This document shows positions 16,748 through 62,131 of a DNA stretch of 64,000 nt, piece after piece. The stretch is from Buxus sempervirens (Eukaryota; Streptophyta; Magnoliopsida; Buxales; Buxaceae). Made by a program: the position numbers and the translations under genes. Under the pieces are notes generated by a model. The model did not search any database. It was not told the origin of the DNA and saw nothing but the letters and a program-made list of their open reading frames with translations. Location: assembly GCA_947561395.2 (NCBI GenBank), contig OX387193.1:28886276-28950275 (forward strand). Reading direction: 5' to 3'. How positions within the stretch are numbered: the first letter of the stretch is position 1; the number at the start of each line of letters is the position of its first letter.

Positions 16748-17017
16748 CTACTCAATCTCCTCACCTGATTTTTGCAGAAACATAACTGCAAGAGTCACAA
16801 GGGATGCATAAATAGAATTGGGGACCCTTTGTATCACCCTCCCAACTCCTGGAACACCCTCAGTTGCTCTTTTTGTTACTACTGCGACTGTTGGTGCTAC
16901 AATCAAGGCAACTACCAGCCCTTGCCCAACTGCAAATCCAATATCTGCGGTCAGTTTTCGAATGAACCCTGCAAATTCTTCACGATCAAGTTCTCCATCA
17001 AGGTTCATATCAAACTC
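16748..17017 (-). CDS. EF-hand gene, coding exon 4 (last)
   Basis: 89 codons plus TAG. Acceptor TTTTTTATGCAG at 17018-17029; the ATG inside the acceptor is intronic and not a start. Encodes the canonical loop [12 protein letters not shown], helix [11 protein letters not shown], and the hydrophobic tail with [13 protein letters not shown] between two apolar stretches. Confidence 0.92.
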   Translation of the reverse strand, partial: EFDMNLDGELDREEFAGFIRKLTADIGFAVGQGLVVALIVAPTVAVVTKRATEGVPGVGRVIQRVPNSIYASLVTLAVMFLQKSGEEIE

Positions 17018-18027
17018 CTGCATAAAAAATAGTGGATGTTATTTTTTTTTTCCTCTGCGTATTATTTAAGGATTGTATCAAAGACATATTTTCATCTGAA
17101 GTCCAAATATTCTCTCCTTGGGGACAAGGTAAGAAAGCCTTCTTCCCAACCTGTGGAGAGGCATGATTATGCTGATCTGAATCGGAATTGATCCATTCCA
17201 GCAAAGATAACCAAGTAATCAGTTACTTTCATGAGGTAAATGAGATAACATATCACAAATAATGATTTTAGTATAAAAAGGCCTAGATTGACAAGACAGT
17301 GACTTCTAAATCACTTTGCCTAGGGTTGCTGATGAATCAAGCTTGATACAGATATAGGCTCACAAGCTGAGCCTAACTTCAAAAGAAAAAAAAAAGAGAG
17401 AGAGAGAAGAAAAAGATTCCTGACTTCTTTAAAGGAGTCGGAGCTGAGTCCCAAAAATATCTATGAAACCTAAGCCCAAAAGATGTAGTGAGCTTAAACC
17501 TTGAGGTTTATGAGTCCAAGACAAGCTGGGAAAAGTTTGGCTACTTTACAAAACTTTGCATATACATATTTAGATAAATAACAAAAACTCCATTAAGAAG
17601 ACCCCAACTTGCTATTTTCATTTTGCAAATCAATTCAATGATTTTTTTCTCAAAATATTACCCTTTACATTCAAATTCGACACATACAGAAAAAGACCAT
17701 CCTGCAAACAGGTATTTAGTACTTCCATATAAGATACAGCTGCCTGTGAGATATAGAAATAGGGCTACTAACCCATTGGTCACATGCAGGTTTTGGTCAG
17801 GTTGCTATTGGGTATTAAGGGGTTGAGGCTCAATTAAACCTACATGTTTAATACCAGCCTGAGAAATATTAAAACCAAACTCATACTATCCTCAACCATT
17901 AAACTTGCTTAAATTATCAATTCCCCACTTATATAATAAATATCTGAAAAATATTTTGTCTCTTTAATGTTAACATCTAATATGCATTAATAATATATAA
18001 CATGTATATACATACATACATACAGAC

Positions 18028-18074
<47 letters not shown>

Positions 18075-21000
18075 CTGCTTCAGAAGCTGTAATTGGTCAA
18101 AATTTAATGCTTAGAATCGGCTACCCTTGAACATAGAGAGAGTTGTTCATCCGAGTTCTTCCCATTTAGCACAGTCTTGGTAGTATCTAGAATTGGGGTT
18201 GGTACATCCTTCACAGAAGATCAAATTGGTGCTGTCTGTTGATGGTAAGACAGGAGGTGCATCTGATGATCCAACAAAGTAGAATGACTGAGAATAATAA
18301 GCAGTGGAAGGATTGATATAGGGGTGTAAAATTTGCAGCACCGTAGGTGGAATGAGAAGATGTACCATCTGTTTTTGGAATGGCGCATAGATTCAAAGTT
18401 GACCTAAGGGGGAAAGGGTTGCTAGAGATAGAATCTTGTCCATATTCCATGTATTACACCCTTAATGATTAGCTTTTGAAGGTGAAAGGAGACTAGACAA
18501 AATAACAATAGTTAGCAATTTATTTGACGAAAATTATCAAGACATAAATGATGACATTTTTCTTACAATTATGTATTGAGGTAATCCCTTGATCACAAGT
18601 TTAAATAGTGTGTGTGCGACCTCATGCATATGGAGATCGAAAACTTCCCTACTTGTCTATCATATAAATATTAAAATAAGCCGTATAAAAAGCAAAATAA
18701 TGAAAAATGCACATGTGAATAAAGCAAGAAGAACGTAGAATCTTTAAAATCGAGATAATATCCAATGAAATTACTCATGCATGATTAAGGCAATAAAAAT
18801 ATCCACATTTTTCAATCATGTGGGCCTAGAAATAAGCCTTTAAGGGAAGATATTAATGTCATATCCAACAAGATTATTCACACATGAATAGGCAATAAAA
18901 ATTATTAATACTTGAGTGAATTGATTTATTTCCTCAAATTGCATACCCTGTGGAGCTGGTCTTGGTAAATTTCCTGTTATTTGTCCAATTCATTATATTG
19001 ACTTCTAGTTGATGTTGATTTTGGATTGTTCTGTTTCTGATTTTGTTTCAGATTTTTTATTTACTATTTCCATTGCTTTTACTTTTAATGTTCTAGGTGC
19101 GTCTGGAATTTATTTTTATACTTGATTTAGATTATTAGTCTTTTGCCTGTATTTAGCATTTCATGCATGGTATCAAATATCGCTTCGTATTGAGTGATGC
19201 GTATCGTGTATCGTGCCGTTAACACAGTAACGTTTCGTAAGAAGGGTAAAAAACGTGAAAACAGAATTTTAGAAGATTGAAGATAACTCTTTACTGAGAA
19301 ACCCATTCCAAAATCCGTGAAACCCCATTGTTATCTACCTATTTTCAACCTAATTAGTACTACAATATCTACAAAACAACTTCAAAGAACGAATTAAGCA
19401 ACAGAAATCAAAATCGTCTACAGTTTTTGAAAGGTATTTTAGATTTTCAATTTTTTTCAATCTAAATCCTTATTTTTTCATATTTAAGCATGGTTTGATA
19501 ATGTTTTGTATGAATCTATCAATTTCAAGTGAAATCCATAGATCGAAATAGCGTTTTTGAGTAAAAAATCAATTTTTTTTGCAATATGAAAAAAAGTTAT
19601 GAAAATCCCTACTTTTTTTTTAAAACAATTATATAAAACTTAATGGTTTGTCTTCAATTTTTTATATGAGATGCACATGGGGCTGATCTATCACCCCTAT
19701 GATTCTTGCACTTTTTCATCAATAAAATTATTTTTAATAATTGTTTTTGCAAAATATTAATTAAAAATATGGGAAAAAATATTATATTTTTATTAAATTT
19801 GATGTTCGGGTTCCACTTTTTTTTCCTAAGATAGGTTGGTGATGCCATTTACATGCTTGTTGGTATATTTTCAATTATTTTGTAGATATGGCACCTAAAA
19901 CGCAACAACAGAAAGGGCAAGACATAGGTTGACAACACAGAGAGATGATTGAAGGAAATAGATTACATACAAAATGCAAATATTATCAAAAGGAGCTTAG
20001 AGGGGGTGGAGTTACTAGATTGAAGCATCATCTTACTGGTGGGAATCCTAATGTAAAAAAGTGCTACAACTATTCTGTAGAAGTTTCCAGGGCTATGAGT
20101 GAGCATCTTAGAGTTGCAAGGAAGGAGAAAGACATTACCATAGAGAGGGATGCTTTGATAGATAGGTTAGCTGGGAGGGCAGCATGGACGGATAGGGGAA
20201 AGGGCATCTGTGTGGATGATGATGATTCCGATGATGATGATGATCGAGAAGATGTTATGACACGAGAGGAGAGAGAACATGTTGATGAAGCAATGAGAAG
20301 ATCAATTGAAGACATTCATTACAGAGAGCAAGGAGGAAGAAGAAGAAGTATAGATTCTGTAGATATTGGTTGCACGCCGGATAGAGCTAGTTTTGAGGGG
20401 CGTCGTCATGGAGGTGGTTTGATGCGCAGTAAAAGTGTCAGAGAAGCTTTTGACAAAATGGTTGGGAGGCCGAAGCAGCCAAGAAAGAAGTCAAGGGGAT
20501 CTACTATAGAGGAGATGGGTCCTTCAATATATCGAAATAGAGATGCAAAGCAAAGTAGGTTGAAGGATGCTTGGCATCCAGGAAAATGGGCAAAGAATGT
20601 AAAGCAAGCCATTGGTAGGTGGTTTATTTACAGCAATATCCCATCAAATGCTGCAAATAACCCCTACTATCAGATGATGATTGATGAGATCGCTAGGGCT
20701 GGACCAGAGATTAAAGGTCCCACTCCATATGAGATCACAGGTCCTATATTGGATGTGGAGGTGGATGAGATACAGATTTACATAGTCATTTATGAAGAAA
20801 TGGGATACTTATGGTGAAACCTTGATGTGTGATGGTTGGGTTGGGCCTACCAGGCTATCGATCATTAACTTTTTGGTCTATTGTGATGGAAGAGTAATAT
20901 TTCATAAGTCTGTTAATGCTTCTGACAAATTCAAGGACCATCAATATTTGTTCAAATTGATGGACGAGGTTGTAGAGGAGATTGGTGAGAAATACATTGT

Positions 21001-24000
21001 GCAGATTGTTACTGACAACCAATCTTCATACAAGAAAGCAGGAGAGTTGTTGATGGAGAAAAGGAAACATCTGTACTGGACCCCGTGTGCGGCACATTGT
21101 ATTGATCTTATGCTCGATTTTCGTGAGAAAAAGATGGTGAAAGGTGTGATTGAAAAAGCAAGGAGATTGACAAACTTTATTTACAATCACAACTGGGTAC
21201 TTAGCCTTATGAGAGAACACACCAAAGGGGAGCTGCTTAGGCCTAGCATTACAAGATTTGTCACAAATTTTGTTGCAATTAATAGTATTATGTCTGAGAA
21301 GGCTGGATTGAGAAGAATGTTTTTATCAAATAAGTGGCAAGAATGTCGACCTAGACGGGATGTCATTAGAAAAAAGGTTGAGGATATTGTTCTAAGTAAC
21401 AATTTTTGGAAGAATGGACGATTGGTAGCTGAAATACATGATCCTATTGTGAAGGTGTTGAAAGTCATGAATGGAGAGAAGCAAACCACAATGGGTTATC
21501 TGTATGAAGCTATTAGAAGGTCTAAGCTTGCTATTGCTGAAGCTGCTCCTGATCATCACCAGATGTATTGTGCAATTATTGATAAAAGATGTAACAAGCA
21601 GCTCATTCAAGACATCCATCGTGCAGGTAATAAACGTAAATTTGTTGTCAATTGTCAACTTCCTATCTTGATTATTACACACTATGAAGATGAAGCAATT
21701 AAGTTACTAATTTTTTTTATTCAATCAGCATTTTACCTCCACTCGGCATATCATTACACTGAAAATCTTGAAATCGATACGGAATTAGTAAGTTCATTTA
21801 GAAGGGTGATGTTGAGATTGGAAAGGGATCCAAAGCGTGCCAATACAGCGCTTGTGAGGTGATTTAGGAATTAGGAATTTTAAGAATTTACTTCTTATTG
21901 TTTTTTGTAATGGACAATCACTAACAGTGTTTCTTTTAATAGGAGAAACTATTTAGAGATGCTATGTATGGCTTTGGAGATCCAGCTGCTATTAGGGCAA
22001 GGACTACATGTGAGCCAAGTAATAGAAATTAAACAATGAAAGTACTTATTTTCATTGTTCAAGTAAATTGTATAATTTTTATGTCGGAGGGATTCATTCT
22101 TCTTTTTTTGGTTATTTCTGCAATTGAGTGTTGGTTCTTGTATGGAACCGATGCACCAAATTTAAGAAGAATTGCATTAAGACTTTTATCACAGACGGCT
22201 TCATCCAGTGGATGTGAAAGAAACTGGAGCACTTTTTCTCTCATCCACACTAAAGTGTGGAACCGTTTGAGTTATGCAAAGTTGGAGAAACTAGTTTTTA
22301 TGCACTACAACATGAGGCTAAAGATACGACATCTTCAAAAGCAAAGCAGAAGGGGAGAGGGCAAATTTAGGCCGATTGACCTTGCACACATATTTGATTT
22401 TGATGAAGATGAGCTTCTCACGGAGTGGTTAGATAATCCAAAGGAGGTAGTGCTTAATGAATTAGATGATAAGGGGAGGCCTACCAAACCAAGTAGCTAT
22501 GTGGTAAAACTTGGTTAATAGATTTAGTGATGATGAAGGAGGAGGAAATACAAGAGTTGCAGGGAGAAGTCGTGCTGGGGTGAGCAGCAGTAGTACTAGA
22601 GTGGGCCGTAATCCTCTTGATGATGGTGACGAGGATGACGACGATGACGATGATGATATTGGACATTGTGAGAGTCCTTCATCACCACCAGGTCCACCGC
22701 AGGGTGGTATTGGTAGTGGCTATGGTGGTGGTATTCACATTACAGAGGAGGCTGAGGAGCAGGAGCAATAGTATGATCGTGGTAATGGCCATGGGGCACA
22801 TCCTCCTTCCGTTCATAATCTTTACCATCGGAGACGACGTGGAGGCCATCCAGCACCAGGATCAGGACATGATGATGTGATGAGGCCACGTGGACATGGT
22901 TTAGATGCCATTACATAAGGAATAGACTTGATTAATGTTGGTCTTTCAGGCATATTTGGAGGTGGACCACATCCAGGGTCGAGGTCATCATCTTTTGGGT
23001 ACGATCAGGAGAGGCCGTCTTCTTCGTATGATTATAGTTATGGCCAGGGGGGATCATCTTATCAACCTAGTTATGGATATGGACATGGTTATGAGAATAT
23101 AGGCTATGGGCATGGCCAGGAGGGATCATCATCTTATGGGCAACAGATGGATCGGTATGGTCACTATGGTGGTAATGTTAGGGGTTACCATGGGTCTACT
23201 TCAGCACAGTATGAGCAATTTAGAAGGGAGTATGAGGCATGGTATCAAAATTATATGGATTGGGCTTTTTATTGTCAGCATGTTCAACGCATGCATAATG
23301 TGCCATTGGTCGATTATGAAGAAGCTGAAGATGAATCTGCACGTCACTCCTGGCATTGAATATGGGGACCATGGGGTAGCTGTGCATGTTTGGATTTTGG
23401 AGCCAAATATTTGTATGTAATGAATTATGGAGAATATTATGATATTTTTTTTTATGAATAATGTAGATGTGTGTATATATATATGTGTGTGTATGAGAAA
23501 GAGAATAGTAACAAGTAAACAATCTGAAGCCCAAAAAAACTCTTTACAAAAACCTCACAAACCCCAGCCCCTAAACACAAAAACAAAGCAAAACTATCAC
23601 AACGGATAACAACACGTGTGCCCCCCAGAGACCAAAATCCAAAGCTGAGCGAGCCATTCAACTTCAGATCAAAAGCACAACTCACTTCCAATCACCTAAC
23701 TCATATGTGAAGCCCCTCCTCTCATCATGCCATCGTCAACAATAATAGACGAAAAACACCATTTTTTCCAGTCCTTCACAATTTCAATATGCCACAGACC
23801 CTGGAATTCAGAAAGAACCGAAGCCCACGAGGTTGCAGCAATCACTATGGAGTCAAACACTTGGTCAGCTAATAGCCGTGTGTCCCTGAAAATCCTATTG
23901 TTTCGTTCCATCCAAATGAACCAAGCCACTGCATGGAATAATGTATCATACAACAACTTGCCCCTCTTCCCCAAGCCCTTAATCCGCCACTGATTGAACC

Positions 24001-27000
24001 AAGCCATAAAAGTATCTGGCAATACCCAAGAGACCTCTACCATCTTAAGCACCCGTGACCAAATAAAAGTGGCAAAACGACAATGGACAAATAAATGATC
24101 AACACTCTCTCCAGACTCCATACACATAACGCAAACACGCGGAGATAAGGAATTCCTTTTCCATCTTCTTTGGATAAGATTAGCCGTGTTTATCCTGTAT
24201 AATAAAGCAGTCCATAAGAAGGCCTTAATCTTAAGAGGGATCCTGGGCTTCCAAAGTTGAAGAGATGAAAAGGATGTTGGAGGAATTGAGGAAGGTTGAA
24301 GAACGGAATTGAAGAAGGATTTGTAGGAGAACAAAGAATTGGATGACAAAAACCAAGATACTTTATCAGAACCTAGGGGATCAAGAACCACATCCTTTAG
24401 GCTGTCAATGAGCAAAGAGATCTCTTCCAATTCAGAAGGACGAAGATTCCTCCGAAACGGAGGATTCTAAGAGAAACCAGAAGGAGACCAATGTAGGGTA
24501 TCAGCCATAGAAGCGAAAGGGAGGAGAGCAAGGGACAATAAACGAGGAAACTGGATGGATAAGGGCTGACTGCCCCACCACAAATCATGCCAAAAACGAG
24601 TCGAAGAACCAGATACGATACTCAACCTAACATGAGGATAAAACAAGGGTGCAATTTTCATAATGGCCTTCCACGAGCAGTTTCCTGGAGGTTGTGCCCT
24701 CAAGTTAATGAACAATCCATTATCGTCAATACCATATTTACTTGTGATCACTTGACGCCACAAACTCTCTTTTTCTATGCTGAACCGCCACAACCATTTT
24801 GCAAGAAGAGAGGAATTCCGGTAGGCTATCATACCCACCCCAATACCACCCTTATCCTTTGCCAAACACACCTTATCCCACCTGACTAAATGAATCTTCC
24901 TTTTTCCCCCACCCTCCCAAAGAAAGTCCCTTTGGGCTTTCTCAATGATGGTCACAATTCTTCTAGGCATCCTAAACAAGGACATGAAATAACCAGAAGA
25001 TTAGCAAGCACAGCCTTGATAAGGATAATCTTTCCCCCCAGAGACAAATAATTCCTCTTCCAAAGCACCAATCTCTTCTCCACTCTCTAAATGACTGGCT
25101 CCCAAAAATTGACATTACGAGGGGAAGCACCAAGAGGGAGACCAAGATACGACATCGGCCACTTACCAACCTGACACCCTAAGATCCGACTAAGAGATAA
25201 GGACTCATCCTCCGCTAAGTTCAAACCAACAATGGAGCTTTTCTCCCAATTAACTTTCGAACCATAAATCATATGGAAAGTATGCAAAATGCTCTTCAAC
25301 CAGATCATTTGGTCCTTGGAGGCTTCCAAAAAAATCAAGGTATCCTCCACAAACTGGAGGTGGGATATTGTTACCTTATTTCTTCCAACCTTAAAACCTT
25401 TGATAAACCCCTTCTTCTACCAAACATGAAAAAACTATGCAAAACCTCAGCAACCAAAGTGAATAGAAAGGGAGACAATGGATCCCCCTGACGAATGCCC
25501 CTAGAAGAAGGAAAAAACCCTTTAACCCATCCATTAACCAAGATAGAGAAATGCACATTATTAAGGCACCCATAAATCCACTTCCTCCACCTTTCACCAA
25601 AGCCTTTCCATTTCAAGACTGAGTCAATGAAAGCCCACTCCAATTTATCATACGCCTTTTCAATGTCCAATTTACACACGACACCAGGCTCCCTAGATCT
25701 TATCCGGTTGTCCACAAATTCATTTGCAATCAGAATAGAATCCATGATTTGACGTCCCTCCACGAAGGCACTCTGATTTAAAGAAACGATCCCTGGCAAC
25801 ACCTTCTTCAGCCTAACCGACAAAACCTTTGCTATAATCTTATAAACACTAGTTGTCAAACTGATAGGCCTGAAATCCTTAATCCCTATTGCCCCAACTT
25901 TCTTAGGGATTAGAACAATGAATGTCACATTTGTGGCCTTGTGAATGATGCCATTCATGAAGAATTCCTGGAACACCTTAAACAAATCATCCTTGACAAT
26001 CTCCCAATTATATTTAAAAAATTCAATTGTAAATCCATCGGGCCCAGGAGCCTTGTCCCCTTCCATCTCCCACAAAGCTTCCTTAATTTCCTCCAGCACA
26101 AACTCTCTTTCTAACCACTTTTTCATCTCCTCACTCAACTTTGATTGATCATTCTCCTTCAATCTGAAGCATAAATCTTGCTCCGACTTATAAAGCTTAG
26201 CATAAAAATCACAAAGAGCCTGGCCAATGTTCTCATTATCCTCAATACTTCTTCCATCCACCTCCAATCTCATGATTGAATTTTTAACTCTTCTCCCATT
26301 TGCTATTCTATGGAAATAAGCTGTGTTTCCATATCCCTCCTTTAGCCATCTTATTCTTGACTTCTGTCTCCAATGAATTTCCTCATACTTCAAAATTCTT
26401 TCCAAGGACGATTTGATCTCCAATCTTCTTCCCCTATCTTGGGGCCCCCAGTCCCCATTTCCTTCCTTAATATCCAACTCGGCTATTTCATCCAAAGCCG
26501 CCTTTTTCTGAATCTCCACCTTGCCAAAGGTTTCCTTATTCCACCCCTTAATTTGATTCTTGACCTCTCGAAGACACCCCATAAACTTAAAGCCAGCCCA
26601 ACCTAAGGAAGCATTCCTACCTTCCGTCCACCACCCCAGCATAAGATTCTGAAAAGACGGATGAGAAAGCCACATATTCTCAAAACGAAAAGGAGAAGGA
26701 CCAGCTAGATAGAACTCATTAGACAGGAAGATAGGAGAATGATTAGAAACTGGTCTGGGAAGAACCAATTGGGCAATTGGCAAAAAGTGATTATCCCAAG
26801 AGCCTGAAGCAAGACATCTATCCAACCTAGAACAACGCGGAGGGATTTGGAGATTTGATCATGTGAACTGCCCACCCTGCAAAGGATAATCAATAAGCTC
26901 ACTCTGCTGAATCCAATTCGAAAAATCCCTCATGCTTCTATTGACTCGATTCTTGCCATTATTAGATTCATGGGAAAATCTATACACATTGAAATCCCCC

Positions 27001-40375: not shown

Positions 40376-40413
<38 letters not shown>

Positions 40414-43400
40414 TTAGGTATATATGTATGTATATGCACACATAAACACAGACACACACACATAATTATTTTATATATGTCAAGGATGTCTAGGTTTTAT
40501 AGGATATTACACACCATACAATGGCAAGGATGACCATTTGGCATCATTGGATGCTTAACTACTGAAGTAGTAGAATAGTCCTATCTGTACTACTCTTATG
40601 CAATAAAAAGATATAAATAAAATCAATTTGGCCCTTCCTCCTGGAACTGTGAATTAATTAGCATAAGATGGCTGCACATGTAATCAATTTGGAGAGACGC
40701 AATTTAGTACAAAAAAGAGAACAACGAAAGAATGAAGCAATTAGACCAACAAATATGCATTTCAACAAACAGGTCTCTTGAACATTAGCTGCTTTATGAT
40801 TATACAAGAAAACCAAAAATTACCTTCATCATAACTTTGACTTTTTCTTTAGAAGGGGGATCGAAGTGGGGCCCAGGCAAATGCTTGTTAATTCCACTAT
40901 ATCCAGAAAAAAGGGAAAAATATAAAACAAAGAAGGAAACCACAAAAGAGAGAGAAAGAAGGAAAGAAAAAAAAGCCTTGTGCAGGCTCTTCTTTCTTTC
41001 ACTCCTTTTGGTAGTGAAGAATGAAGAATCTTACTTGTAAACAAGTAGGACAGCAATATATAGGTCTTCAAATGTCAATTTAACTTTTCCTGATCCATCT
41101 TGGAAACGATTAAAAACCCTATCTGTTATCTTTCTTACTTGCTTATCTCTCCATTGTTTACCTGCAGAAACCTTTAACATCAGAAACATTATGAGAAAAA
41201 TACACTCTTTAAAAAACTAAAATTACTTCCAGGTTATTCATTTCATCAGAATAACTTCCTCAAGGAAAGGCCACACACCCCACTTGGATGATTAAACCAG
41301 ATTGATGGATAGCTGGAAGCCTGGAACATAGATTGGAGTGCATGGAATGTTGCACATATAAAATTACTGAAATATGGCTAAATTTTAACTATACATCATG
41401 CATCTAATATAGTTCTACCCAAGGTTTTCATTATCATTTCGATCGACATGTCACCGGCTACTGCAGGCAAAATCTCAAGATCTCCTACTTACAGGAAAAT
41501 CGCTAGAACATGATTTTTTCAGTAAAAAAATGAGAAAAAAGCATAAATATGGTAAAAGCATTCTAATATTATGGTTTTTCTAAGTTTAAGTGAGACTAAT
41601 ATATGCCCAAATACTTAATAATTGTGACAAAAACATATTTAAATATGGAATAATGGATCATTTGCATATTTAAAGGAAGTTTAATGATGAAGATACAATG
41701 GCAGAGGCTGATAGGCATGCATATTTACATAGTAAACCTGAAAATGAACACAAAAATAGAAAGTGCATGCATGAAGATACCATGGTCGCAGGTGACTTTT
41801 ACTTCATTTTGACGACATTTCAACGACTTACAGGAATGCTTGGCATTCCATTTTCTAGGGCGATGTGTTGCTAACTCTCCAAATAGCAACATTTCGCGAC
41901 ATTTTACAAAATGTCCCGACATTGAAAACAATGGTTTTACCAACATTCAACTATTTCCTAAAGAATTATTGGACACCAGGAATATTTAAAACAACAGAAA
42001 ATATACATACTGAAAAAATCCACAATAATGCTGCCACTTAATTTTTAATCACATATGAACTACTATAATTCCATATAAATATTGACTATTGGTTTCTAAC
42101 ACCTAACAAACAAATGATAATAAGAAGCTGTACACCAAATAGTTGGGGTTGGCAACAATGATCATCCCATCGTCCATGTCAATGTGATAGAACCCATAAC
42201 TACAATGATGTTATGTGCCTTCAAACCCATTCTGGAACTCCACCCAGAACCCTTCAGTGTCCTTCAAGCCATTTTAGATCCTTGAACTTGCACCATTTTT
42301 TGCCTTCTAGTGCCTCCACAGAATCTCCATTTTACATGCTGAAGACATCTAGCTCAACTTTGTTTTATCTCCCAAGAGGACTACTTCAAGAATCCCGAAG
42401 ATATGTTCATTGCTTACTTTATCTTTTCTAGTATCTTCACCCATTCATCTCAATATCAGCATATAAGCCACACTCATTATAACTAATTTGCCTCTTATAG
42501 CCCCAATATTCTACATTAATGTCCATAGAAATCCATAGAAATTAATCTAAACCTTAAAACATGGAAAACCAAAAAGAAAATTTTGGCGGTAAACATATAA
42601 AAGTGTATACAAGATCCAGCATATATCGTATCTGAAAAGGTCAAGGTAGACGCTTCATAGTCATTTATATAGGTGCAGCTCTGAAATAAGCAATTACATC
42701 CTAAGGCAGGCCCTAACAAGAATTCAAACTCCAATCATAAATTTTGGTTGGAAAGGATTGTAACCTGGTGCAGATCTGCCAAAGCAGGGAGCCAGAGTGG
42801 ACTGGTAACAGATATAAACTGTCATTTCGGTACAAAGTAACTCAGCTCAAACTTGAACTCATGTTTTAAAGCAGGCAGCACAGATGTTTGACTATCACAA
42901 CAAGTGACAGGTCCCTCAGGTTAAGAAAAGGACAAAAGAACAAAATTTTGCAAAACATAGCTATGCCAAAAAGATGTTAAATACACGTCTGCCATGAAGG
43001 AACTACATGACTTGCAACACTGAACACAAAATTTTAAGGTATCCTCATTGAACAAATATCAGCCTCACAAGATAACTACATTTATACCATTCATAGAACT
43101 TTTATCCAGATCATTCCATTTCCTTCTGAACTGAGACAAATATACGAGTGGTGAGCATCTAATACATATTTATCTTCGTCCCAGAAGATCTCTTTTCTGG
43201 ACTCAGACAACTAGGATGTATGGTCTGTCAAACAAGATTTTAAATATTGCTGCTGAGGGGCATGCCAACCCTTCTGCCTGCCGGCATATCGGCAATATGC
43301 CTCTGGCATATCACCGGTATAGTGTACAAACCTGATAGATAATTTTTTTATAAGCATAAATACATTTGAAAGGAAATTTCTGCAAGAATTTTTTTATTAG

Positions 43401-44063
43401 AAAAAAAATTACTGACACCCATCGATGGATTTGTTGTCACTGAACTGCATATCCAAAAATGAAGGATTCTGCAAAGTTTAGAAGCATCAAATTTGCATAA
43501 TAACATATTTACCTGACTAACACTCCTCTGAAATCACAACTCTCAAAGTTTATCTTGCATTGGAGGGAATAACACTCAAAATGAGTGTGAATCAACTTCA
43601 ATTTGAAGAATATTCAGGTACTTCTTCGAATTTAAAAAAAAAAAAAGCAAAAGAGGGTGTGAGAGATAAGTCGCTCAAAAATGGTTACTTATCTCTCAAA
43701 AGAGGGCTCTAAAAGCACTCTTTTGAGTAACATGCCAACTATATATTGTCTCTGACTCTCTGGAGAAGAAGTCTATTTTCTCCCAGATTATTGTTCTGGT
43801 CCAGGCCTTCAAAGGCGACTTATCACCAGCATTCTGCGGCATGCCGGCAATATTGTAAACATTGCTGCCAAGGGATGTGATGAGCCTTTGATAAAGTTCA
43901 CATGGATCATGATAGGGATTACCATTGCTATGATGCTAGATAACTGCACATGTATTCTCTTCATTCATGAAACAGCTGATTCTATATTGGCAATCCTCCA
44001 AGATTTATACACTAATGTCAGTCTAACTTCACCGCTGTGTGGGGACACTGGGGAGAGAAAGAA

Positions 44064-44104
<41 letters not shown>

Positions 44105-46491
44105 TTTCCCTCTCAAAGCTTTTTTGTCATAATTTTATTGATATAAACATGGACATCAAACTCTTTTACCATGTATTCAGGCTCCAAATTAATCAAATCT
44201 TTTGTCTCCGAAAATTTGTCAATGAAAAATTATCTTCTCTGGAAATGTGTTCTTCCTTTCAGTCAAGGGCAACTAATTGATGCCCATCTCACCAGGAGTT
44301 AAAAAAAACAAATATAATTCCTAACCTCTTCAGAAATAAAGGGCAGTATCAATCCAGACCAGAAAACTAGAAGCATCATTATCATCTCCTCAGGAATTTG
44401 ATTACCAGAACCTGTCTGAGAAGGCTTGAGGCGACAAGGCTTTCTCTTTTTCAGCTGTATTTTCTGAAACCCTCTTTATAAAATCTTCTTTAATTTTCAA
44501 AAGAAAAAAGAACCTGTCTGAGAAGTGTTTCTTGCTGTACTAGACACTTCATAGGCACTGTAGAGCTTTGCCTGAAGAAAGCATTTGAAGAGATCTCCAA
44601 ATTCCAGAAACATCAATTCATTAGCAATTGCATATGAGTTAGACAAGAAGTTCAATTTCCCAAGATTACCTTACATGTCTAAAGGTCTGTAAAATATAAT
44701 TTTGTTATAATTTTGTAATTAACTTACAATTTCCAGACAAAGAGAGAGAAGGTTCATCAATTGGTTTGATCCGAGTATGATACTTTTTCTGAACTATTAC
44801 TGCCTCACTACCAAAATCCAATTCTCTCACCCTGTTTCATCAATGATGAATTATAAGTTGAATTTATTTATGCCTCTGAAAGAAAAAAACACCAATGAGC
44901 CAAGCCTTTGTAGGCCACTTAAAAAAATTTTATGCAATGAGACATATAGGAAAGGAATAATTGTGAGCGGGGTAAGCAACAAAATAGTACACCAAGTTCA
45001 ATTCTATATTCAGAGATTTTCTTCAGAGAGGAAACAGAATACTACATATAAGGGAGGTAATAAAAACTTTCATAATCCTGGTAGTGCTCAGGAAGTCCAA
45101 GGTGTCAACAATGTTATAGACCAGAGCTGGGAATTCATAACAGGTTGAAAGCAAGAAATGCAGAAACCAGGACACATGTCTTGAGCTAGAATCACACTGT
45201 TCAGTCATTTCAGGCCATCACATATCAACAGAATCAGAAGCAGATCCTAAATTTCTATTAAGCCAGCTTCTTTTTTCCCAAAAAGTGGTTTCTCGCACTG
45301 GATCTGGAATCCACACACATACATACACAGAGATGGCATTGGCTTAAATGTGTTAGAAGACGCTTGTCAGCACTGGCATAGTAAATCTCAGATTCAAGTT
45401 ATCCAATTATCCATTATATTTGTGGTGATTGCTGCTCTAATTCTACATCTTGGGTTTTTCCATATCCACAACCTGCTCTGGCTCACCAGTCCCAAGTTCT
45501 AAATTTAGGTCAAAACTCTTCATATTGTTTGTTTTACATCCAAAAGAACATCGTTTGTTGCTTCAGGATTCTGAAAGCTGATGTGTCTCACAAAATTTCT
45601 TCATATCCATTTCTCAGGGTATCTGGTAACCATGTATGTCGGAGTTGATGATTTGACAGAACAAATAATAAGAAATCTCCATCCGAAATCCATAAGTAGG
45701 GCCATCCACTGCAGATTATTTGTAAGAAATACTAATTTATGGCAGGTCACTTGGGTCACCTAATCAAGATCTTTCCTTATAGCTTTTCCTCATATCTAAA
45801 AAGCTGGTGCAGTTGCTTGATTATCAGGTCAAGGCAATTCACTATCATTATCATTCTTTTGCACTAGTCCTTTTCTTCTTCATACGGGTCTTCAAACTCC
45901 TCCCAGTGAATCAATATGCAATCAGCATTACCCATCGTCTTCCTGGCATATAAGATACACCTTCAAATTATTGTGTCCATTGCCTGATTGGCAAGCAACA
46001 CATAATTTCTTGTCAAAGAAGCGCTCCCAAAAGAAAAACAGATTATTTTGGAATTTATATTAGTGCAAGCAAGGAGAAGCATACCAGCTTGCCCATCAAG
46101 TGGAAGGGTAACCAAATCAGGGTCCTAGAGAAAATTTCATCAGGAAAAGAGGGATCCCTCTTTGGTGAGGGAAGATGTAGCATAGCCTAGTTACCTGCAT
46201 CACCATCTTAATTTGATTTCATTTCATTTATTGGTTTAGACTCCCTCAATCAGGATGTACAGAGTACAGACAATGATAGCAAATGAAACTTTACAAATGC
46301 CTGAATGAACTCAATTTGAAACTCTGCTGGTGCAGCATCAATAAACCAATCAATGAGTGATCACTTGGCCCATCATTCAGAGGAATCTTCTTTTTTATTT
46401 TCAAAAATCTGACAATAATTGATCAGCAGTTTCATCATCTTCCTTGCTTACACAAACACAAACACTCTTATGCACACACACACATATATAG

Positions 46492-46543
<52 letters not shown>

Positions 46544-49500
46544 TGGCAATAGAGAAGGTTAATCTATCTTCCATGTCAATAATTTTTTTACAATTTCAAG
46601 TGATAGATTTTTATGAATGCATGATCTGCTTCTTGTTCCTGAGCTCAAAAAAGGCTTCTATTTTCAATTAGTCTATACATCAGTTTCCGTATTTTTTGAT
46701 AAAACAAGAAAACATTCAAACATATCTTTGTGCCAAACCAGAAATGGATAAAAACAAGAAAACAAGAAAAAACTGAATCCCAAACCAGAAATGGAGAAAT
46801 TTTTCTTGGACAGATCAAGGATATTACAAGAAGAATGACTTTGTGCCAAAACATTCAAACATATCTGACATTGTGACTTGGATATCCATAAAATAACAAG
46901 ATTGTTTTCATGGTTGAAATGAATTTCATTCAGTTTGTTGAGCTTGTTAGTTGCAAAAAGACTGTGCACTTTTATCTTTCTTTGAACCATAATAAGCCAA
47001 ATAATATTTTTCAGAAATATCATTTGATTTCTAAGACCCATCTCGAGTTAATTTGTTCCAGAAGTCCAATATTATTTTACTATTGTAGAAGATCACATGT
47101 TAAAATGATTCTACCCACTCAGACAAAATCAGAATTTCTTAAAAAAAATTTATGATTGTAAAAGATTATATGAAAAAATGTAGTCATAAAATTGAAATAT
47201 TTCAAAGCAATAGAGGGAGATGACAAGGAACACTTTCTAATGAATCTGAGAAAAGGAAATTTCAGAACCACTATCATTCCCTGGGGGTCCATAAAAAAAA
47301 TATTTTATGCTACAATTAATATTAATTTTCCATAAAGGACATCCAAATTGATGGTTTAAGTGCTTTGTTACAAGGAGTTCCTCATTAATCATCTCTTTCG
47401 TGATGCTCCATCAAAAAAAGAGAAAAAAAAAGGCAAATCTTCCAAGGTCTTCAGTTGTTGATGCTTTCCAAATTTGTGAAAATATGACAATAAATTTTAT
47501 CAGAAGTACTTGGATTGTGTGTTTGTGGATTCAAGCTTCTCTCATTAAGTATATAGACGTATATTCTCTACCACTTATGTTTCCTACAGTTGGTTTTCCA
47601 GGAAAATACATTTTTACTAATGGCAATTCATTGGCTGATTGCAGTCAATAGACTGGTGTGCTGCAAATTTTGATAATGGTTTTCATATTCTTCCTCATAT
47701 CCCCCTTCTTCAAACGTGACAATTACCACCCGCTACTTGTGGTACTAGATTTTGTGGATACTTCTCCATGTAAACATCCCTGCAGCTCCAAGTATTATTA
47801 ATGTTCCATGCACATCACCCAGTGCAGAACCAGAACATTCCATGCACATCACCCAGTGCAGAACCAGAAACTACAGGCACCACATACTCATTGTCAGCAT
47901 CCTTATCAAAAAAGTTTCAATGCAACTGATCCACCTTCAATCCAAGATATCATGTTAATCAGAGCTTAAAATTACACAAATGTTCTCTCAATCCCTCTAT
48001 GCTTGGCAAGGACCACGGCTTCATCTGCAGTCAAATATCCATCCTCCAGTAACATGACATCTCTCCATTTCATCTCAGGTTATCATATGCAAGCCACTAA
48101 CATACCTTGGAAACAGTTGCTCCTTGGTCTAATGTATGTCATTGTGCACCATGAGTTTGTAAAATTCTTCAGTATAATCAATTACACTTTTTGATTCTTG
48201 GCAAAGAGTGTTGAACTAGGAAAAGGTAACTTAGGTGAAATCAAGCTGAAAGAATTTCTCTTTCAACCTTGACTTGATTTTCAGCCAAGTTGAAATTTTG
48301 GGCCTTTCTTTTAAGGCATGTAACTCTTGAACTTTGTCTCACCATTCAGATTCATATCCATGAATTCGAGTAGCTACTTGCCTGACATGTTGGCTTTCTG
48401 GTGTCTCTTTTTGTAATTAAAAAAAAAAATTCCAATGGCACTAAGCCAATCAAGAAATTCTTTAGAATGAAGATACCCATGAAACTCCGATAGGTCAACC
48501 TTGAGTGATAATGTCAGAATCATGATAAAGCTATCGTTCCCCACATGTAGGTTGATAGGCAAAAGGATTGATCTTGGATTCTTCGCCTGAATCATCTTGG
48601 CTTTATCCTAGGTCATTACAAACTTCTTGAAGTTCAAGCTGAACGTTTAATTGCTCAACTTGTCTCCGAAGTGCCTGCAGTTCCTCTTCTCTTGTGCTGT
48701 CCATCACAGCATGAACATGCTCCCTACCTCCCCTAACCACCATTGGAGAAGTGATGATAGATGGTATAGGTAGCTCAAGAGCTTAGCTCAAGCTATAATA
48801 CCATATGATGGAGAAGCAAAGAAAGGTAGAGGCAAGAGAAAGAAAATAACTCAAGATAACAATAAGAAAAAAGAGATAAGAGAAGATTAGGAAACCTTCT
48901 GTTCAAATTTTCTTAACTAGTTGTATATTACTTGAAAACTCTGCCAGTGTTTGCTTTTATTGTTATATCTTTTATGCGCTGCTGGTCCCAAGCCCGGAGA
49001 ATGGAGGAGGGTTGTGTCAGGTTAGCAGCCAGTGTAAAACTCTTGCTAAATTTAAGGGTGCAATCATACTAGCACTAATGCACCGCATCCCATCAGAACT
49101 CCAAAGTTAAGCGTGTGGCTGTTAACCACAAGTTCGGAGGTTCAAGCCCTCCTTCTAGCGTAATTTAAAAGTTTCCCTACTTTGGTGGGAACTGGCTTAT
49201 GATGACGGTGATGATGATGATGATGAATTGTATATTACTTGTATCATACACAAACCATGACCTCCTCCTCCTTATATAGGCCTTTACACATTAAACATCT
49301 AGTTACTTCTACAACTTACAATGCAGTAATATAAAATTTACTAGATATTAACTACTACAAACAACTTGCAATCTAGTCAAAATTCAACTTACTATAACTA
49401 CTATTCCCAAATCTAATAAAGTTTCTAACCACCAAACCATTTCCGATGAGAAGTTTAACACAACTAAAGACTTAGGCTCCGTTTGTTTCAAAGTAAAACA

Positions 49501-52014
49501 TTTTCCTTTGGAAAATATTTATGTCGGAAAATATTTTCAGGAAAATCAAAGTTTTTCAATTGTTTGGATGGATATTAGAAAATAGAGTTGAAAATGAGAA
49601 TTTTTTCATTTTCTTCTGTTTGGAATAAATGAAAATAATGGAGGAAAACTTAACAAAATTAAAGCCATATGCGCCCATACCGGTCCTCCGGTAACTGACA
49701 CCCATACTGTAATTTCATCAAGAATTCCTTGAAGAACACCAGTATACTTCGGCGACCGTAAAGGTATCTCAACGCATTGATTCCGATATAGCAAAGGAGG
49801 TAGATGGTGTCGGCAAGGGAGGGGTCGAAGGTGAGATGGGGATACTCGAGGGATTCGGCGATGGAAGAGAAGTTCAAGCATGAAGGGGCCCATGCATTCG
49901 GGGGTGTCCAGTACTAGGCCATTGAATCGGAGTCAGAGGGCTTTGGTGAAGTGGAGGTGGAAGCATGGTTGTTAGTACCGGGATCAGGTACCGGACAAGT
50001 CTGGGCCGGTCCTGGTACAACCTGGACCAAATCGGCCGGTCCCAGGTGATCACGAAAAAAAGGCCAAAAAAAAGGGGGTTGTGGGCATGGATCAACCGGT
50101 CCCGGTCTGGACCGTCCAATCCAAAATGGTAGTAGGCAGTACGATCTGGCCCAATCCGATCTGGCTCCAAAAATTCAGAATAAAATAAAAATGTAAAAAA
50201 AAAATCAGAAAAATAGGAAAATTCATAATAAATTGATATAATATATAATAAACAATTAAATAGTGTATTAAAAGGGTATGTAAATAATATGTTAAATTGT
50301 TATTATCAACACTAACTTAACATCTAGGACCGTAACAGATTTACATTGTAGAAAGCAAAGAGGATTCTGAGTATCAGGTTCTCTAGATGTGGGTGTAAAC
50401 CGGTTCGTGATCTGTTGATTCTGCTGCGTATTTCAGGTTTGGATTCGTTTACAGATATGTCTCTAAAACCTTGCAAATACTGCATCGTATAAGCTAGCTT
50501 GTAGAATATTTTTCACCTGCAAATGAATTTTCTCAATCTCATAAGATATGCTGTACCCACAAATCAAAAATGTCATTGTGCTGAGAACTTGAGAATAAGC
50601 TGTCTCCCTGCTATAGTTGAGTGTACAAATCACCAGTTTTTGTAGGCTCAGAATTTCCTGGCATTAGTTGTACTTATGTGTTCCAGTTTTCCTTCCAAAT
50701 AATTTCAAGCTCTAAGCAGAGGCTGTTCCCCTTTTAAACATTAATGTCTCCTTCTCTACTGTGTTTGTGATATCAAGGAGCTATATAACCTTGACATTCA
50801 CCACAAAAGCTTTCAACTATTGCTCAGAATAAACTATTTGCCTAAGTGTTTCTATTCCATGCTATTTCTTAATTTTAAAGCATCTACGACAGCTGTTCCG
50901 GAGATTTAAGGCACCATATTCCTTGTCTAGAATCTATCCTACATCACTTGTATTCCTCAGCTTGAGAAAAATTAAGCAACAAAATGGGGATGCACAGATC
51001 ATGATAAAAATTACCATTTCACTGCATTAAAAGAATTTGAAATATGTTAAACTAATGAAACATCTCACTCCATTCAAAACACAATCATGCTGTTTGATTA
51101 TTATAACCTTCCTGCTTATTTTTAATTCCATATAATATTTCTTTATACTTCAAAAATTTGCACACCACTATCATGCTGCAACTCTATTAAAGTGAGTTTC
51201 ATTTTCAAAATTTCTCTAATGTCTCTTGTGACCCTGTATGTTAAGAACATCCCAAGAGTGATTATCCTAGATTCTCGAATCCTTTCTTGATCCATACTGT
51301 AATCAAGCTCCAAAATTACCCATTCAATGTTAAATGTGAAGACCCAGACAACTTTGAGAAGATTGATCCACAAGAAGTTCAGAATTGCTTTCAGAAACCA
51401 ATTGAACATTTTATACCCAGCCCCTAGCATTTAAATAGACGAAAACTACATTACATTAAATCTAGTAAAATACAAAGATCCCAATAACTGATGCTGAAAA
51501 AGCAACTAACCACCAGATATGTACAGGAAAACAGAATCCAATAAGCAACTAAAACCCTTGCCATTGAAAACCAGTTAATTAAAGAACTCCCAATTCAGAA
51601 TAACTCAAAAACAAAATTTTAAACTTCTTAAAAAATCCAAAAAAATTCTATAGCGGCATTTCTACCAACACAAGGTGACTCATCCCTAGAAAACCATATA
51701 TAATGCTGAATTTGGAATCATAACGAACATATAAGTATGGAGAACTGAACTATAACACCGAATAATAAGCTAGACCCCAGAAACCCTATAACAGAAAAGC
51801 ACGAAACGCATATAAATGGCAGAGAAATGTAGAAGAAGCGTATTTACGTTCAAAGACTACCCATCGATTCAAAGACGAAACATATAAAACTTCACACAAG
51901 TATCCACCGATTAAAAAAAAAAAGGAGCCAGAGAGACCGAAGACCATATTCTATCATGATCCGATCTCAAGTACCTTGTAATTTCTCCTGAATTGAGCCG
52001 AAGACCTGTCCCAT
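16748..52014 (-). CDS. EF-hand calcium-binding protein, four exons over 35 kb
   Basis: Exons (minus strand): 51975-52014, 41035-41161, 40824-40896, 16748-17017. Every junction is GT-AG and the phases fit (1 nt + 2 nt restore Gly; 2 nt + 1 nt restore Asn; last junction in phase 0). The result is 169 codons and TAG with no stop or frameshift. The protein begins MGQVFGS; Gly2 makes N-myristoylation possible. It then has [17 protein letters not shown] and [14 protein letters not shown] (a degenerate EF-hand), and [16 protein letters not shown] canonical calcium loop [12 protein letters not shown] follows (D1, N3, D5, D9, E12). The tail is hydrophobic ([34 protein letters not shown]), suggesting membrane contact. 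I recognise the plant EF-hand family but know no gene symbol or proven function. The intact frame argues for a live gene despite the introns. Confidence 0.92.
17030..19150. other. 3' part of intron 3, no gene recognised
   Basis: Minus-strand frames near 18147-18450 do not match a family I know. Apart from the microsatellite at 17999-18071, nothing is supported. Confidence 0.5.
17999..18071. repeat. (CATA)n/(TA)n microsatellite
   Basis: Runs of ACATACATACATAC pass into about 28 bp of pure TA. Confidence 0.9.
19165..19260. repeat. Degenerate CGTATCG-type repeat near the hAT 5' side
   Basis: Units such as CGTATTG, GCGTATCGTGTATCGTGCC recall the interior of the hAT MITEs at 1701 and 41420. It may be the subterminal region of the hAT element that follows, but no terminal repeat or 8 bp TSD could be placed. 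Confidence 0.35.
19888..22518 (+). pseudogene. hAT transposase with BED finger and DUF659, decayed
   Basis: Starts [14 protein letters not shown], then an in-frame TGA (19930-19932). The BED finger TKCKYYQKE...[11 protein letters not shown] follows, with its second Cys changed to Tyr. Next come an acidic linker, [20 protein letters not shown], and the DUF659 core [15 protein letters not shown] with [10 protein letters not shown] frameshift lies near 20795. Two introns are likely: about 21860-21941 (ends TTTTAATAG) and about 22017-22126. After these come [19 protein letters not shown] and the hAT dimerisation region [18 protein letters not shown] and [17 protein letters not shown]. It would cut and paste hAT DNA. 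It lies antisense in intron 3 and cannot make a full protein as it stands. Confidence 0.9.
22519..23359 (+). pseudogene. C-terminal tail of the hAT protein (Gly/Tyr/Ser-rich)
   Basis: A frame change after SSYVVKL leads into [11 protein letters not shown], then an Asp run encoded by GAC/GAT repeats. TAG follows EEQEQ at 22769-22771. A last open segment, 22928-23359, has repeated GYGHG / SSYG / YDYSYGQ units and ends DESARHSWH. Some plant DUF659 hAT proteins have such low-complexity tails. It is broken by at least two changes. Confidence 0.65.
23696..27417 (-). pseudogene. L1 ORF2: endonuclease, reverse transcriptase, zf-RVT
   Basis: Order from the 5' side: endonuclease start [17 protein letters not shown], a frameshift near 27200, then [17 protein letters not shown] and [10 protein letters not shown]. 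The SDH motif reads SNHSP, so the catalytic Asp is lost. RT carries [59 protein letters not shown] and [13 protein letters not shown]. The active-site FxDD reads FVEDTLIF, Asp to Glu. A frameshift near 25380 precedes it. Downstream come [20 protein letters not shown] and the zf-RVT with [33 protein letters not shown] and [12 protein letters not shown]. It stops right after zf-RVT, with no RNase H. Two lost catalytic residues and the frameshifts make it inactive. Confidence 0.88.
27414..28978 (-). pseudogene. L1 ORF1-like region, broken
   Basis: Three minus-strand pieces (28978-28745, 28767-28357, 28356-27544, then a frame change to 27683-27414) cover the place of ORF1 immediately before ORF2. 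They are Ser/Gly/Arg-rich, and no zinc knuckle or DUF4283 core is clearly seen. The stop of the last piece overlaps the ATG of ORF2. Assigned by position rather than by motif. Confidence 0.55.
29001..30810. other. T-rich intron DNA, nothing recognised
   Basis: Long pyrimidine-rich tracts (for example 29290-29400). No domain, splice-consistent exon or terminal repeat found. Confidence 0.5.
30811..31096. repeat. Tandem duplication, 140 bp unit, two copies
   Basis: GGATTGGATAGATGTTTGTG begins both copies (30811 and 30951). The units differ at only a few positions (for example GACGCATC versus GACACATC, AGAAACT versus AGCAACT). It is recent in comparison with the surrounding relics. Non-coding. 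Confidence 0.95.
31097..32760. other. Intron DNA without recognisable feature
   Basis: An open frame at 31839-32258 (+) has no family resemblance and no splice context; I do not treat it as a gene. Confidence 0.45.
32773..33715 (+). pseudogene. L1 ORF2 C-terminus: zf-RVT plus RNase H
   Basis: Begins in zf-RVT with [29 protein letters not shown], a TGA and a frame change near 32910-32940, then [17 protein letters not shown]. An RNase H domain follows, with acidic residues in [12 protein letters not shown] (D), [11 protein letters not shown] (E), VVEGDSITV (D) and [11 protein letters not shown] (D). Plant L1s are known to have gained an archaeal-like RNase H. The RNase H stretch itself has no stop. 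Confidence 0.88.
32773..33921 (+). mobile_element. 5'-truncated L1 LINE with RNase H, 12 bp TSD
   Basis: AAGATTTTAAAC occurs exactly at 32761-32772 and 33922-33933, so both ends are fixed. The inner 3' end is a short A-rich tail (ATTATCAAAAAAAGC). The 5' end is cut inside the zf-RVT domain, as usual for incomplete reverse transcription. Inserted antisense to the EF-hand gene. Confidence 0.92.
35094..37771. mobile_element. 2678 bp solo LTR inside the LINE
   Basis: Begins TGTAATGCCTTG and ends CAGGGCGTGACA. Flanks are CTCTT (35089-35093) and CTCCT (37772-37776), a 5 bp TSD with one change. The LINE reading resumes on both sides. No coding region remains. The GGGCGTGACA end is common on Ty3/gypsy LTRs of plants, but lineage cannot be proved here. 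Confidence 0.8.
35935..36235. repeat. Degenerate CGCTCGA / GCTTGAGCG tract in the solo LTR
   Basis: Repeated units like GCTCGATAGGGAGCTTGAGCG, each a small imperfect palindrome, at roughly 100 bp spacing. GC-rich compared with the rest of the LTR. Confidence 0.6.
39611..39790. repeat. Tandem duplication, 90 bp unit
   Basis: GAAGACTATTAAGGGTTGAA occurs twice, 90 bp apart, followed by TTTATTTCATAATAATGGTT in both copies. Confidence 0.9.
39938..40095. repeat. Spaced direct repeat
   Basis: ATGGATTGAGATTATGTGCA followed by TGAAA occurs twice, about 108 bp apart. Confidence 0.85.
40344..40460. repeat. Compound (GC)(GA)(TA)(CA) microsatellite
   Basis: GCGCGC, about 28 bp of AG, about 30 bp of TA, then TATG and CACA units. 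It lies only about 360 bp beyond exon 3 within intron 3. Confidence 0.9.
40824..40896 (-). CDS. EF-hand gene, coding exon 3
   Basis: 73 nt: 1 nt plus 24 codons ([18 protein letters not shown] ... MMK). Acceptor CTGGATATAG, donor GTAATT. It ends in phase 0, directly joining the GAG of exon 4 although that exon is 23.8 kb away. Confidence 0.9.
40897..41034 (-). other. Intron 2 of the EF-hand gene, 138 bp
   Basis: Donor GTAAGA, acceptor CTGGATATAG. Purine/pyrimidine-biased. It is the only intron of normal plant size in this gene. Confidence 0.9.
41035..41161 (-). CDS. EF-hand gene, coding exon 2
   Basis: 127 nt: 2 nt, 41 codons, 2 nt. Acceptor TTTCTGCAG, donor GTAAGA. Encodes the basic [14 protein letters not shown] stretch and the first, degenerate EF-hand region ending LYIAVLLVY. 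Confidence 0.9.
41420..41933. mobile_element. 514 bp hAT-type MITE with CCGGC/GTCGCGAC-like interior
   Basis: Left end CAAGGTTTTCATTATC; right end CATTGAAAACAATG, an imperfect inverse. The flanks GTTCTACC (41412-41419) and GTTTTACC (41934-41941) match at 7 of 8 positions, so an 8 bp TSD is likely. The ends resemble those of the MITE at 1701. The edges carry short repeats (GTCGC, CGACATTT); the middle is AT-rich. Confidence 0.6.
41942..43232. other. Intron 1 DNA, nothing recognised
   Basis: No exon, terminal repeat or domain found. Confidence 0.45.
43233..43870. repeat. Two blocks of degenerate CCGGCATATCGGCAATATGCC repeat
   Basis: Block 43245-43325 has repeated GCCGGCATATCGGCA-like units. 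An inverted counterpart at 43830-43870 has GCGGCATGCCGGCAATATTG. They could be the two ends of one hAT-like element starting CAAGATTTTAAATATTGC, but no TSD was matched. Confidence 0.4.
43871..46469. other. Intron 1 DNA with a GA microsatellite
   Basis: Only the (GA)n run near 44066-44100 is recognisable. A plus-strand frame at 44777-45148 matches nothing I know. Confidence 0.45.
44066..44100. repeat. (GA)n microsatellite
   Basis: About 17 GA units. Confidence 0.9.
46470..46541. repeat. (CA)n/(TA)n microsatellite
   Basis: CACACACA, an ATATATAG break, then over 30 bp of CA and a short ATAT tail. Confidence 0.9.
46542..47640. other. Intron 1 DNA, no gene recognised
   Basis: A short repeat is visible: CCAAACCAGAAATGGA occurs twice near 46733-46795, and CAAACATATCT recurs near 46717 and 46855. 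Nothing else. Confidence 0.4.
47650..48830 (-). mobile_element. Ty3/gypsy gag relic
   Basis: On the minus strand, about 48760 downward gives [20 protein letters not shown], then an acidic stretch (QDDSGEE), then [20 protein letters not shown]. These are typical of the N-terminal part of plant gypsy Gag. Later pieces (for example around 48150) are out of frame. Just upstream (48790-48815) ATGGTATTATAGCTTGAGC is a decayed match to a tRNA-Met primer site. Stops and frameshifts are many, and no LTR was found. Confidence 0.65.
47804..47870. repeat. 34 bp tandem duplication
   Basis: TTCCATGCACATCACCCAGT, then GCAGAACCAGAA, occurs twice at a 34 bp period with almost no difference. Confidence 0.95.
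49056..49115 (+). rRNA. 5S rRNA fragment, first 60 nt
   Basis: GGGTGCAATCATACTAGCAC onward matches plant 5S rRNA from its first base to the GTTAAGCGTG segment. Three of the visible differences are C/G to T/A changes (CAATC for CGATC, CTAGC for CCAGC, CCAAAG for CCGAAG). It lacks half the molecule, including the internal element and C box, so it is not a functional 5S gene. Confidence 0.9.
49111..49160 (+). tRNA. tRNA-Asn(GUU) 3' fragment, joined to the 5S piece
   Basis: GCGTGTGGCTGTTAACCACA carries the anticodon arm (GTT at 49121-49123). GGAGGTTCAAGCCCTCC is the T arm with the pol III B box, and TTCTAGCG is the acceptor 3' strand. The D arm and 5' acceptor strand are absent. The two RNAs share AGCGTG at the junction (49110-49115). 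Not a functional tRNA. Confidence 0.9.
49474..49640. mobile_element. End of a DNA transposon relic (GGCTCCGTTTGTTTC)
   Basis: GGCTCCGTTTGTTTCAAAGT opens an AT-rich stretch with GGAAAATATTTT units, a common look for plant DNA-transposon ends. The second end is missing. A related stretch is at 53960-54075 (GGCTCTACTTGTTTCAGTGG). Confidence 0.4.
49970..50165. repeat. Degenerate CCGGTCC / GGTACCGG repeat
   Basis: Repeated GGTACCGG, GGCCGGTCC and ACCGGTCCCGGTC units on both strands in an AT-rich setting. The style is that of the other degenerate-repeat MITEs in this window, but no terminal repeat or TSD could be placed. Confidence 0.5.
51975..52014 (-). CDS. EF-hand gene, coding exon 1
   Basis: 13 codons plus 1 nt, starting ATGGGACAGG and ending before donor GTACTT at 51974. 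The start is chosen because this ATG opens a peptide ([13 protein letters not shown]) that joins in phase to exon 2 to give ...LQGKQWRDK. Gly2 is followed by small residues at positions 6 and 7, so it fits the N-myristoylation consensus. Confidence 0.85.
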
Positions 52015-52200
52015 GGCGAATCTGGAGCAGAGGCCGAGGCAGCTGCAAAGTACCCAAAGTCTATTTGAAACAAATTGAAATATAGAGAGAGAGCGTGTTT
52101 GGGTAGTTGAAGATACAAGTAGGACTAAGAAGCGACCCGCGGGAAGTATGACGGACGTGTAATTCGTTAACACGTGGCTCTTCTAAAAGGTCACGGATCC
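52015..52200 (-). promoter_or_regulatory. 5'UTR and promoter-proximal region of the EF-hand gene
   Basis: Directly upstream of the ATG. A CT-rich tract on the gene strand (ACGCTCTCTCTCTATAT, complement of 52080-52097) resembles the pyrimidine patch near plant transcription starts. No convincing TATA box was picked out. Confidence 0.4.
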
Positions 52201-54838: not shown

Positions 54839-54862
54839 ATTTTAAGACATTTTGATTGATTC

Positions 54863-62119: not shown

Positions 62120-62131
62120 TGGTATCAGAGC
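62120..62131 (+). other. Primer binding site, tRNA-Met type
   Basis: TGGTATCAGAGC, complementary to the 3' end of initiator tRNA-Met, directly after the LTR. Confidence 0.9.

Follow-up and report, generated by a model that had tools for sequence, protein, structure and literature searches.

Plant genes with introns of many kilobases have been described in several species. In grapevine, 2,697 introns are longer than 3 kb, some exceeding 20 kb, and repeats such as LINEs and LTR elements are abundant in them (Jiang and Goertzen 2011, PMC3058033). These large introns are found in genes seen as ESTs, and genes of this type are broken up by gene predictors (PMC3058033). In Arabidopsis, RT-PCR has validated introns of 5 to 11.6 kb (PMC5575664). 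Heterochromatic introns occur in about 11% of rice genes; they are longer and show enrichment near promoters, and dozens of rice loci depend on OsIBM2 for proper transcripts. When IBM2 is lost in rice or Arabidopsis, polyadenylation or termination takes place prematurely within heterochromatic introns (PMC7145194). Ginkgo has 16,939 introns above 20 kb (PMC5118899), and in Chloranthus 876 of 2,184 orthologues are longer than 20 kb (PMC8626473).

The gene analyzed here is a further member of these TE-bearing long-intron plant genes and is ordinary in kind. It lies in a 64-kb stretch of Buxus sempervirens DNA (the whole stretch that was analyzed, hereafter the window), on the minus strand between positions 52014 and 16748. 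As originally predicted, four exons of 40, 127, 73 and 270 bp join in phase (junction phases 1, 2 and 0) with GT-AG borders at all three introns, giving 510 bp that correspond to 169 codons and a stop; exon 1 is less certain than the others. The predicted intron lengths of about 10.8 and 23.8 kb and the coding share of about 1.4% were also reproduced, the recomputed share being 1.45% of a gene span of 35,267 bp. The gene model is as follows.

51975..52014, minus strand: coding part of exon 1, 40 bp; 13 codons plus one base, the ATG preceded by GCC, phase-1 donor GTACTT
41162..51974, minus strand: intron 1, 10,813 bp, mostly low-copy DNA
41035..41161, minus strand: exon 2, 127 bp; in-phase join and Pfam profile
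40897..41034, minus strand: intron 2, 138 bp
40824..40896, minus strand: exon 3, 73 bp; in-phase join and Pfam profile
17018..40823, minus strand: intron 3, 23,806 bp
16748..17017, minus strand: exon 4, 270 bp; EF-hand loop, hydrophobic C-terminal part and stop

The predicted protein matches the Pfam model EF-hand_8 with 32.2 bits against a cut-off of 28. This match covers residues 41-99 and runs across both junctions between exons 2, 3 and 4, and therefore these three exons are more than a chance arrangement. Being inside the EF-hand profile, the joins of exon 2 to exon 3 and of exon 3 to exon 4 can, as far as the sequence tells, be regarded as secure. Compared with a plant consensus, the donors of introns 1, 2 and 3 match at 7, 7 and 8 of 9 positions, respectively. 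An AATAAA motif is present about 80 bases beyond the stop codon, and a CACGTG motif is located at position 52171, about 160 bases 5' of the ATG of exon 1. The intact coding sequence and splice sites suggest that the gene is live. Taking these data together with those presented below, we consider it very probable that this is an EF-hand (calcium-binding-type) gene found only once in the assembly, that its long introns are spliced out in the ordinary GT-AG manner, that intron 3 has grown by at least five insertions, and that it represents a long-tail case of a common plant architecture.

Four other EF-hand models also matched the protein, each below its cut-off, and the score for DUF7874 (PF25284; residues 39-161) was 28.2 bits, which is below the cut-off of 30 for membership. 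A phmmer search against solved structures gave 38 sequences with a best E of 1e-4, and by name every one is a calcium-binding protein or construct. By eye, the EF-hand loop in exon 4 looks canonical; the protein starts with MG and its C-terminal half is hydrophobic. No known RNA families (at gathering threshold) or tRNAs were detected in the 64-kb window. At1g64850 of Arabidopsis may be the counterpart of the Buxus protein. One table assigns At1g64850 to the calcium-binding EF hand family proteins and gives locations that include plastid and peroxisome (PMC7081724), and it is among the chloroplast outer-envelope proteins listed with unknown or unclear function (PMC4415399).

A protein search of the 676-Mb assembly resulted in three candidates, all three of which correspond to exons 2, 3 and 4 of the window itself. 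When the exon 2-3 stretch was searched as DNA, the only full-length match was its own locus; four additional matches, of 63-79 bases, fall within intron 2. Thus, the situation that would have spoken against the original prediction, an intact short-intron copy elsewhere, was observed by neither the protein nor the DNA search of this assembly. The only relative found is a distant DUF7874 locus on C1, for which three of four candidates are matches (at 52629315, 52631012 and 52636409), with about 1.6 and 5.3 kb of DNA between them. The matches at 52631012 and 52636409 are above the DUF7874 cut-off, and the match for exon 2 is weak, with 18.9 bits and an E of 0.59. Inspection by eye showed that the counterpart of exon 2 can be read behind an AG with phases 1 and 2, and the next exon in phase 0; a counterpart of exon 3 was not identified at this locus.

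Exon 1, and hence intron 1, is less sure than the other joins. The proposed exon 1 is only 40 bp long and falls outside the EF-hand_8 and DUF7874 matches. We screened the range 41162-52100 for first exons having an ATG, no stop and a phase-1 donor with at least 7 of 9 matches. Eight candidates fit this rule, one of them being the proposed exon 1 (donor 7/9), and another, 48142-48106, has a better donor (8/9). Moreover, two of the eight adjoin exon 2 directly, and either of these would make intron 1 unnecessary. The coding sequence might therefore begin directly ahead of exon 2, at the ATG at 41189 or 41180, the frame of exon 2 being open upstream and containing ATGs, or in another upstream exon, in which case intron 1 would be shorter or absent and the gene would span about 24 kb. 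We consider this unlikely, since the proposed exon 1 has the start context GCCATGG with CACGTG upstream, and the exon-2 counterpart of the relative on C1 can be read as starting after an AG, likewise in phase 1. The latter argument, made by eye, is modest, as the frame at that locus is open further upstream too. A search limited to ATGGG starts did not reveal a first-exon candidate in the 17 kb upstream of exon 2 of the C1 relative.

We now return to the model with four exons. The original prediction of at least five transposon insertions in intron 3 held, as five could be delimited. They cover 14,739 of its 23,806 bp (62%), and 9,067 bp remain. The features of intron 3, in the direction of transcription, are the following.

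37772..38375, minus strand: upstream part of an older LINE (tblastn with LINE proteins, E 5e-29)
35094..37771, unstranded: solo LTR with TG...CA ends and CTCTT / CTCCT flanks, inside the older LINE
34615..35093, minus strand: downstream part of the older LINE (tblastn match 34884-34615, E 7e-9)
32773..33921, plus strand: 5'-truncated L1 (RNase H end) between the 12-bp duplications AAGATTTTAAAC
29060..32760, unstranded: single-copy-looking part of intron 3; 16 candidates, all scored, with short matches of at most 233 bp besides itself
23446..28994, minus strand: L1 with broken endonuclease-like, RT and zf-RVT frames; A-tail 23446-23454, a tail common to its copies
19166..23445, plus strand: hAT transposon, its DUF659 and hAT dimerisation frames broken; the left end is retained and the right end is missing at the border with the L1

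Growth of intron 3 by insertion is supported as follows: the truncated L1 is flanked by a target-site duplication, as is the solo LTR apart from one mismatch; the hAT and the larger L1 have boundaries in common with copies; and the older LINE is recognized by protein similarity. The older LINE (38375-34615) is split by the solo LTR at 35094-37771, which has the TG...CA ends of an LTR, no internal region, and a 5-bp duplication with one mismatch. Three copies of this LTR were examined; at the same ends, two have perfect 5-bp duplications and the third has a single mismatch. Likeness of the truncated L1 to its copies starts at 32788, and its 12-bp duplications are absent from the four copies examined.

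For the larger L1, RVT_1 and zf-RVT scored above cut-off and Exo_endo_phos just below. At least six copies, the nearest 93% alike, span its whole alignable length and shorter ones reach up to 95% (best 31 of 1,569 candidates). Its 5' end is shorter than in four of five fetched copies, which extend at least 40 bases further 5', and we therefore rejected the idea that it is full length. A target-site duplication of this element (23446-28994) was not found: a 13-bp repeat at 23444 and 29044 was considered and rejected, because comparison with the five fetched copies showed that it is largely the element's own tail. DUF659 and Dimer_Tnp_hAT both scored above cut-off in the hAT at 19166-23445, which has at least 19 near-full copies that are 86-92% alike (best 31 of 1,115 candidates). 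All seven copies examined have exact 8-bp duplications at their best-paired ends; an exact 8-bp match was demanded in this search, and hence it is the shared ends, rather than the duplication alone, that carry weight. The copies share the right end CATGGTTC(A/G)AAG and the left end CAGGG/CATGG, with 3-4 mismatches of 12. They run on past the point where the window copy stops, which has the left end only, and searches for TIRs and duplications on the window copy gave nothing convincing. Beyond the L1, weak AT-rich similarity at 30575-30689 was the only candidate for the right end, and it was not accepted. The A-tail of the larger L1 starts exactly at the broken hAT end, without a target-site duplication. 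An L1 that removed part of its target on insertion would leave such a junction, and this would account for the absence of both the hAT end and the L1 duplication.

Besides the stretch at 29060..32760, the part of intron 3 between 38380 and 40820 also looks low copy; its search gave 14 candidates and a single repeat, about 130 bp long (40128-40257). The low-copy reading of the remaining 9,067 bp is based on these two stretches, which were searched alone; 17018-19165 was searched jointly with the hAT.

Intron 1 is different in content, with recognized repeats making up 1,965 of its 10,813 bp (18%). Its features are given below.

49247..49963, unstranded: repeat fragments, including a 189-bp repeat at 49470-49658 about 90% alike to many copies
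48062..48890, minus strand: decayed fragment with broken frames, 77% alike to a copy on C4
41910..48050, unstranded: single-copy-looking stretch of 6.1 kb; 31 candidates, all scored, with matches of 41-367 bp besides itself
41481..41899, unstranded: unclassified repeat, 86% alike to its best copy

The broken frames at 48062..48890 resemble a putative Ty3-type gag. No TIRs were found for two of the intron 1 repeats. Four stop-to-stop frames of at least 120 aa are present in intron 1, and none gave a Pfam match over cut-off that would indicate a nested coding gene. The other pieces, chiefly 49964-51974, were searched jointly with abundant repeats, and the best 39 of 1,457 candidates did not include the window's own place. 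As a separate observation, a 105-bp stretch at 46185-46289 has five matches on contig C240, all lying within 260 kb and with 76% identity.

The original prediction described both introns as transposon-filled. This applies to intron 3 (62%) but not to intron 1, of which 18% is recognized as repeat and 6.1 kb looks single copy; very old, decayed repeats are possible there. Nor do recognized transposons suffice to explain the length of both introns, because without the delimited elements 8,848 and 9,067 bp would still be left in introns 1 and 3, respectively. Recognized transposons thus account for part of the length, and most of what remains looks low copy. The locus has intact exons and TE-bearing introns of more than 10 kb, which is clear for intron 3 and weak for intron 1. 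It is conceivable that both long introns already comprised about 9 kb of unique DNA when the recognized elements arrived, that they are kept long for conserved regulatory or noncoding content, and that the insertions are passengers rather than the source of the length, a view to which we give little credence.

According to the reading we prefer, the two long introns would be removed through ordinary GT-AG splicing, intron 3 would have grown via at least five mobile-element insertions, and intron 1 and the rest of intron 3 would consist of long, mostly low-copy DNA where tested. By analogy with other plants, the elements may be silenced as heterochromatin within a transcribed gene, and an IBM2-type pathway may aid readthrough. 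The resemblance to the rice introns is that TE-bearing introns lie inside genes (PMC7145194). Transcription and splicing through such introns have already been studied (PMC7145194, PMC5575664 and PMC3058033), and hence the original suggestion that the gene raises a new question about splicing or silencing is not supported.

Likewise, the gene resembles those of grapevine in having multi-kb introns with LINE and LTR insertions, but the grapevine large introns are described as more than 80% repetitive (PMC3058033), compared with a recognized 62% for intron 3 and about 18% for intron 1. The 5.7-kb intron of Arabidopsis AT5G13250, which is 9.3% TE and long in other plants too, is somewhat like intron 1, whereas none of the Arabidopsis introns described in section 3.2 of that paper reaches the 23.8 kb of intron 3 (PMC5575664). 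The gene also provides a worked annotation example, as its coding sequence is short and automatic prediction could break it up.

Chaperonin genes (PF00118) of the same assembly served as a control for intron length, using neighboring match pairs that are contiguous in the profile (n=23). The gaps in these pairs have a median of 368 bp and a maximum of 2,943 bp, and eight looser pairs (13-60 profile positions unseen) have gaps of up to 10,285 bp; these DNA gaps include unmatched exon edges and slightly overestimate the introns. The control used 53 of 70 rows; the 17 dropped rows are two intronless genes, matches without a usable neighbor, and dispersed broken copies, and one kept row (C10:38911049) is probably a broken copy too. 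Sec1 genes gave too few usable pairs to serve as a length control, and one 9.6-kb gap between matches overlapping in the profile was left uncounted. Intron 3 exceeds all 31 chaperonin gaps, and intron 1 is nearly equalled by one. The EF-hand gene is therefore in the long tail of a genome in which kilobase introns occur in housekeeping genes. This differs from Ginkgo and Chloranthus, where introns are described as long genome-wide (PMC5118899, PMC8626473), while most of the 23 control gaps are short.

During this comparison, a broken TCP1 chaperonin piece (profile 179-221, same stop count) was seen at six places (C1:42782436, C8:19252064, C10:38911049, C6:43846109, C9:5884950 and C10:30026250). 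It has the appearance of a gene fragment that a mobile element has dispersed.

A locus of this kind might also be decaying, with the insertions in intron 3 causing premature polyadenylation and a full message no longer being made. Introns of this type carry such a risk, given that polyadenylation or termination comes too early in heterochromatic introns when IBM2 is lost (PMC7145194), but the coding frames and splice sites of the Buxus gene are all intact and the searches of the assembly revealed no second copy by which selection could be relaxed, which makes decay very unlikely. An assembly error that set exons 2-3 and exon 4 far apart is highly improbable: the hAT and the larger L1 do have many copies, and both the hAT end and the L1 target-site duplication are missing at their junction, but the truncated L1 has the same duplication on either side, as does the solo LTR apart from one mismatch, the older LINE resumes beyond the solo LTR, and the window contains no N.

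The flanks of the gene contain further repeats. Just upstream, a copia-type element at window positions 54425-59965 has gag, integrase and RT frames between direct repeats, which are 92-94% alike and about 5.1 kb apart, and more copia-type frames are present at 62069-63929. Downstream of the gene, positions 2243-3429 contain nested inverted repeats, whose three arm pairs (90-93%) surround about 1.2 kb; this may be a large foldback or MITE-like structure.
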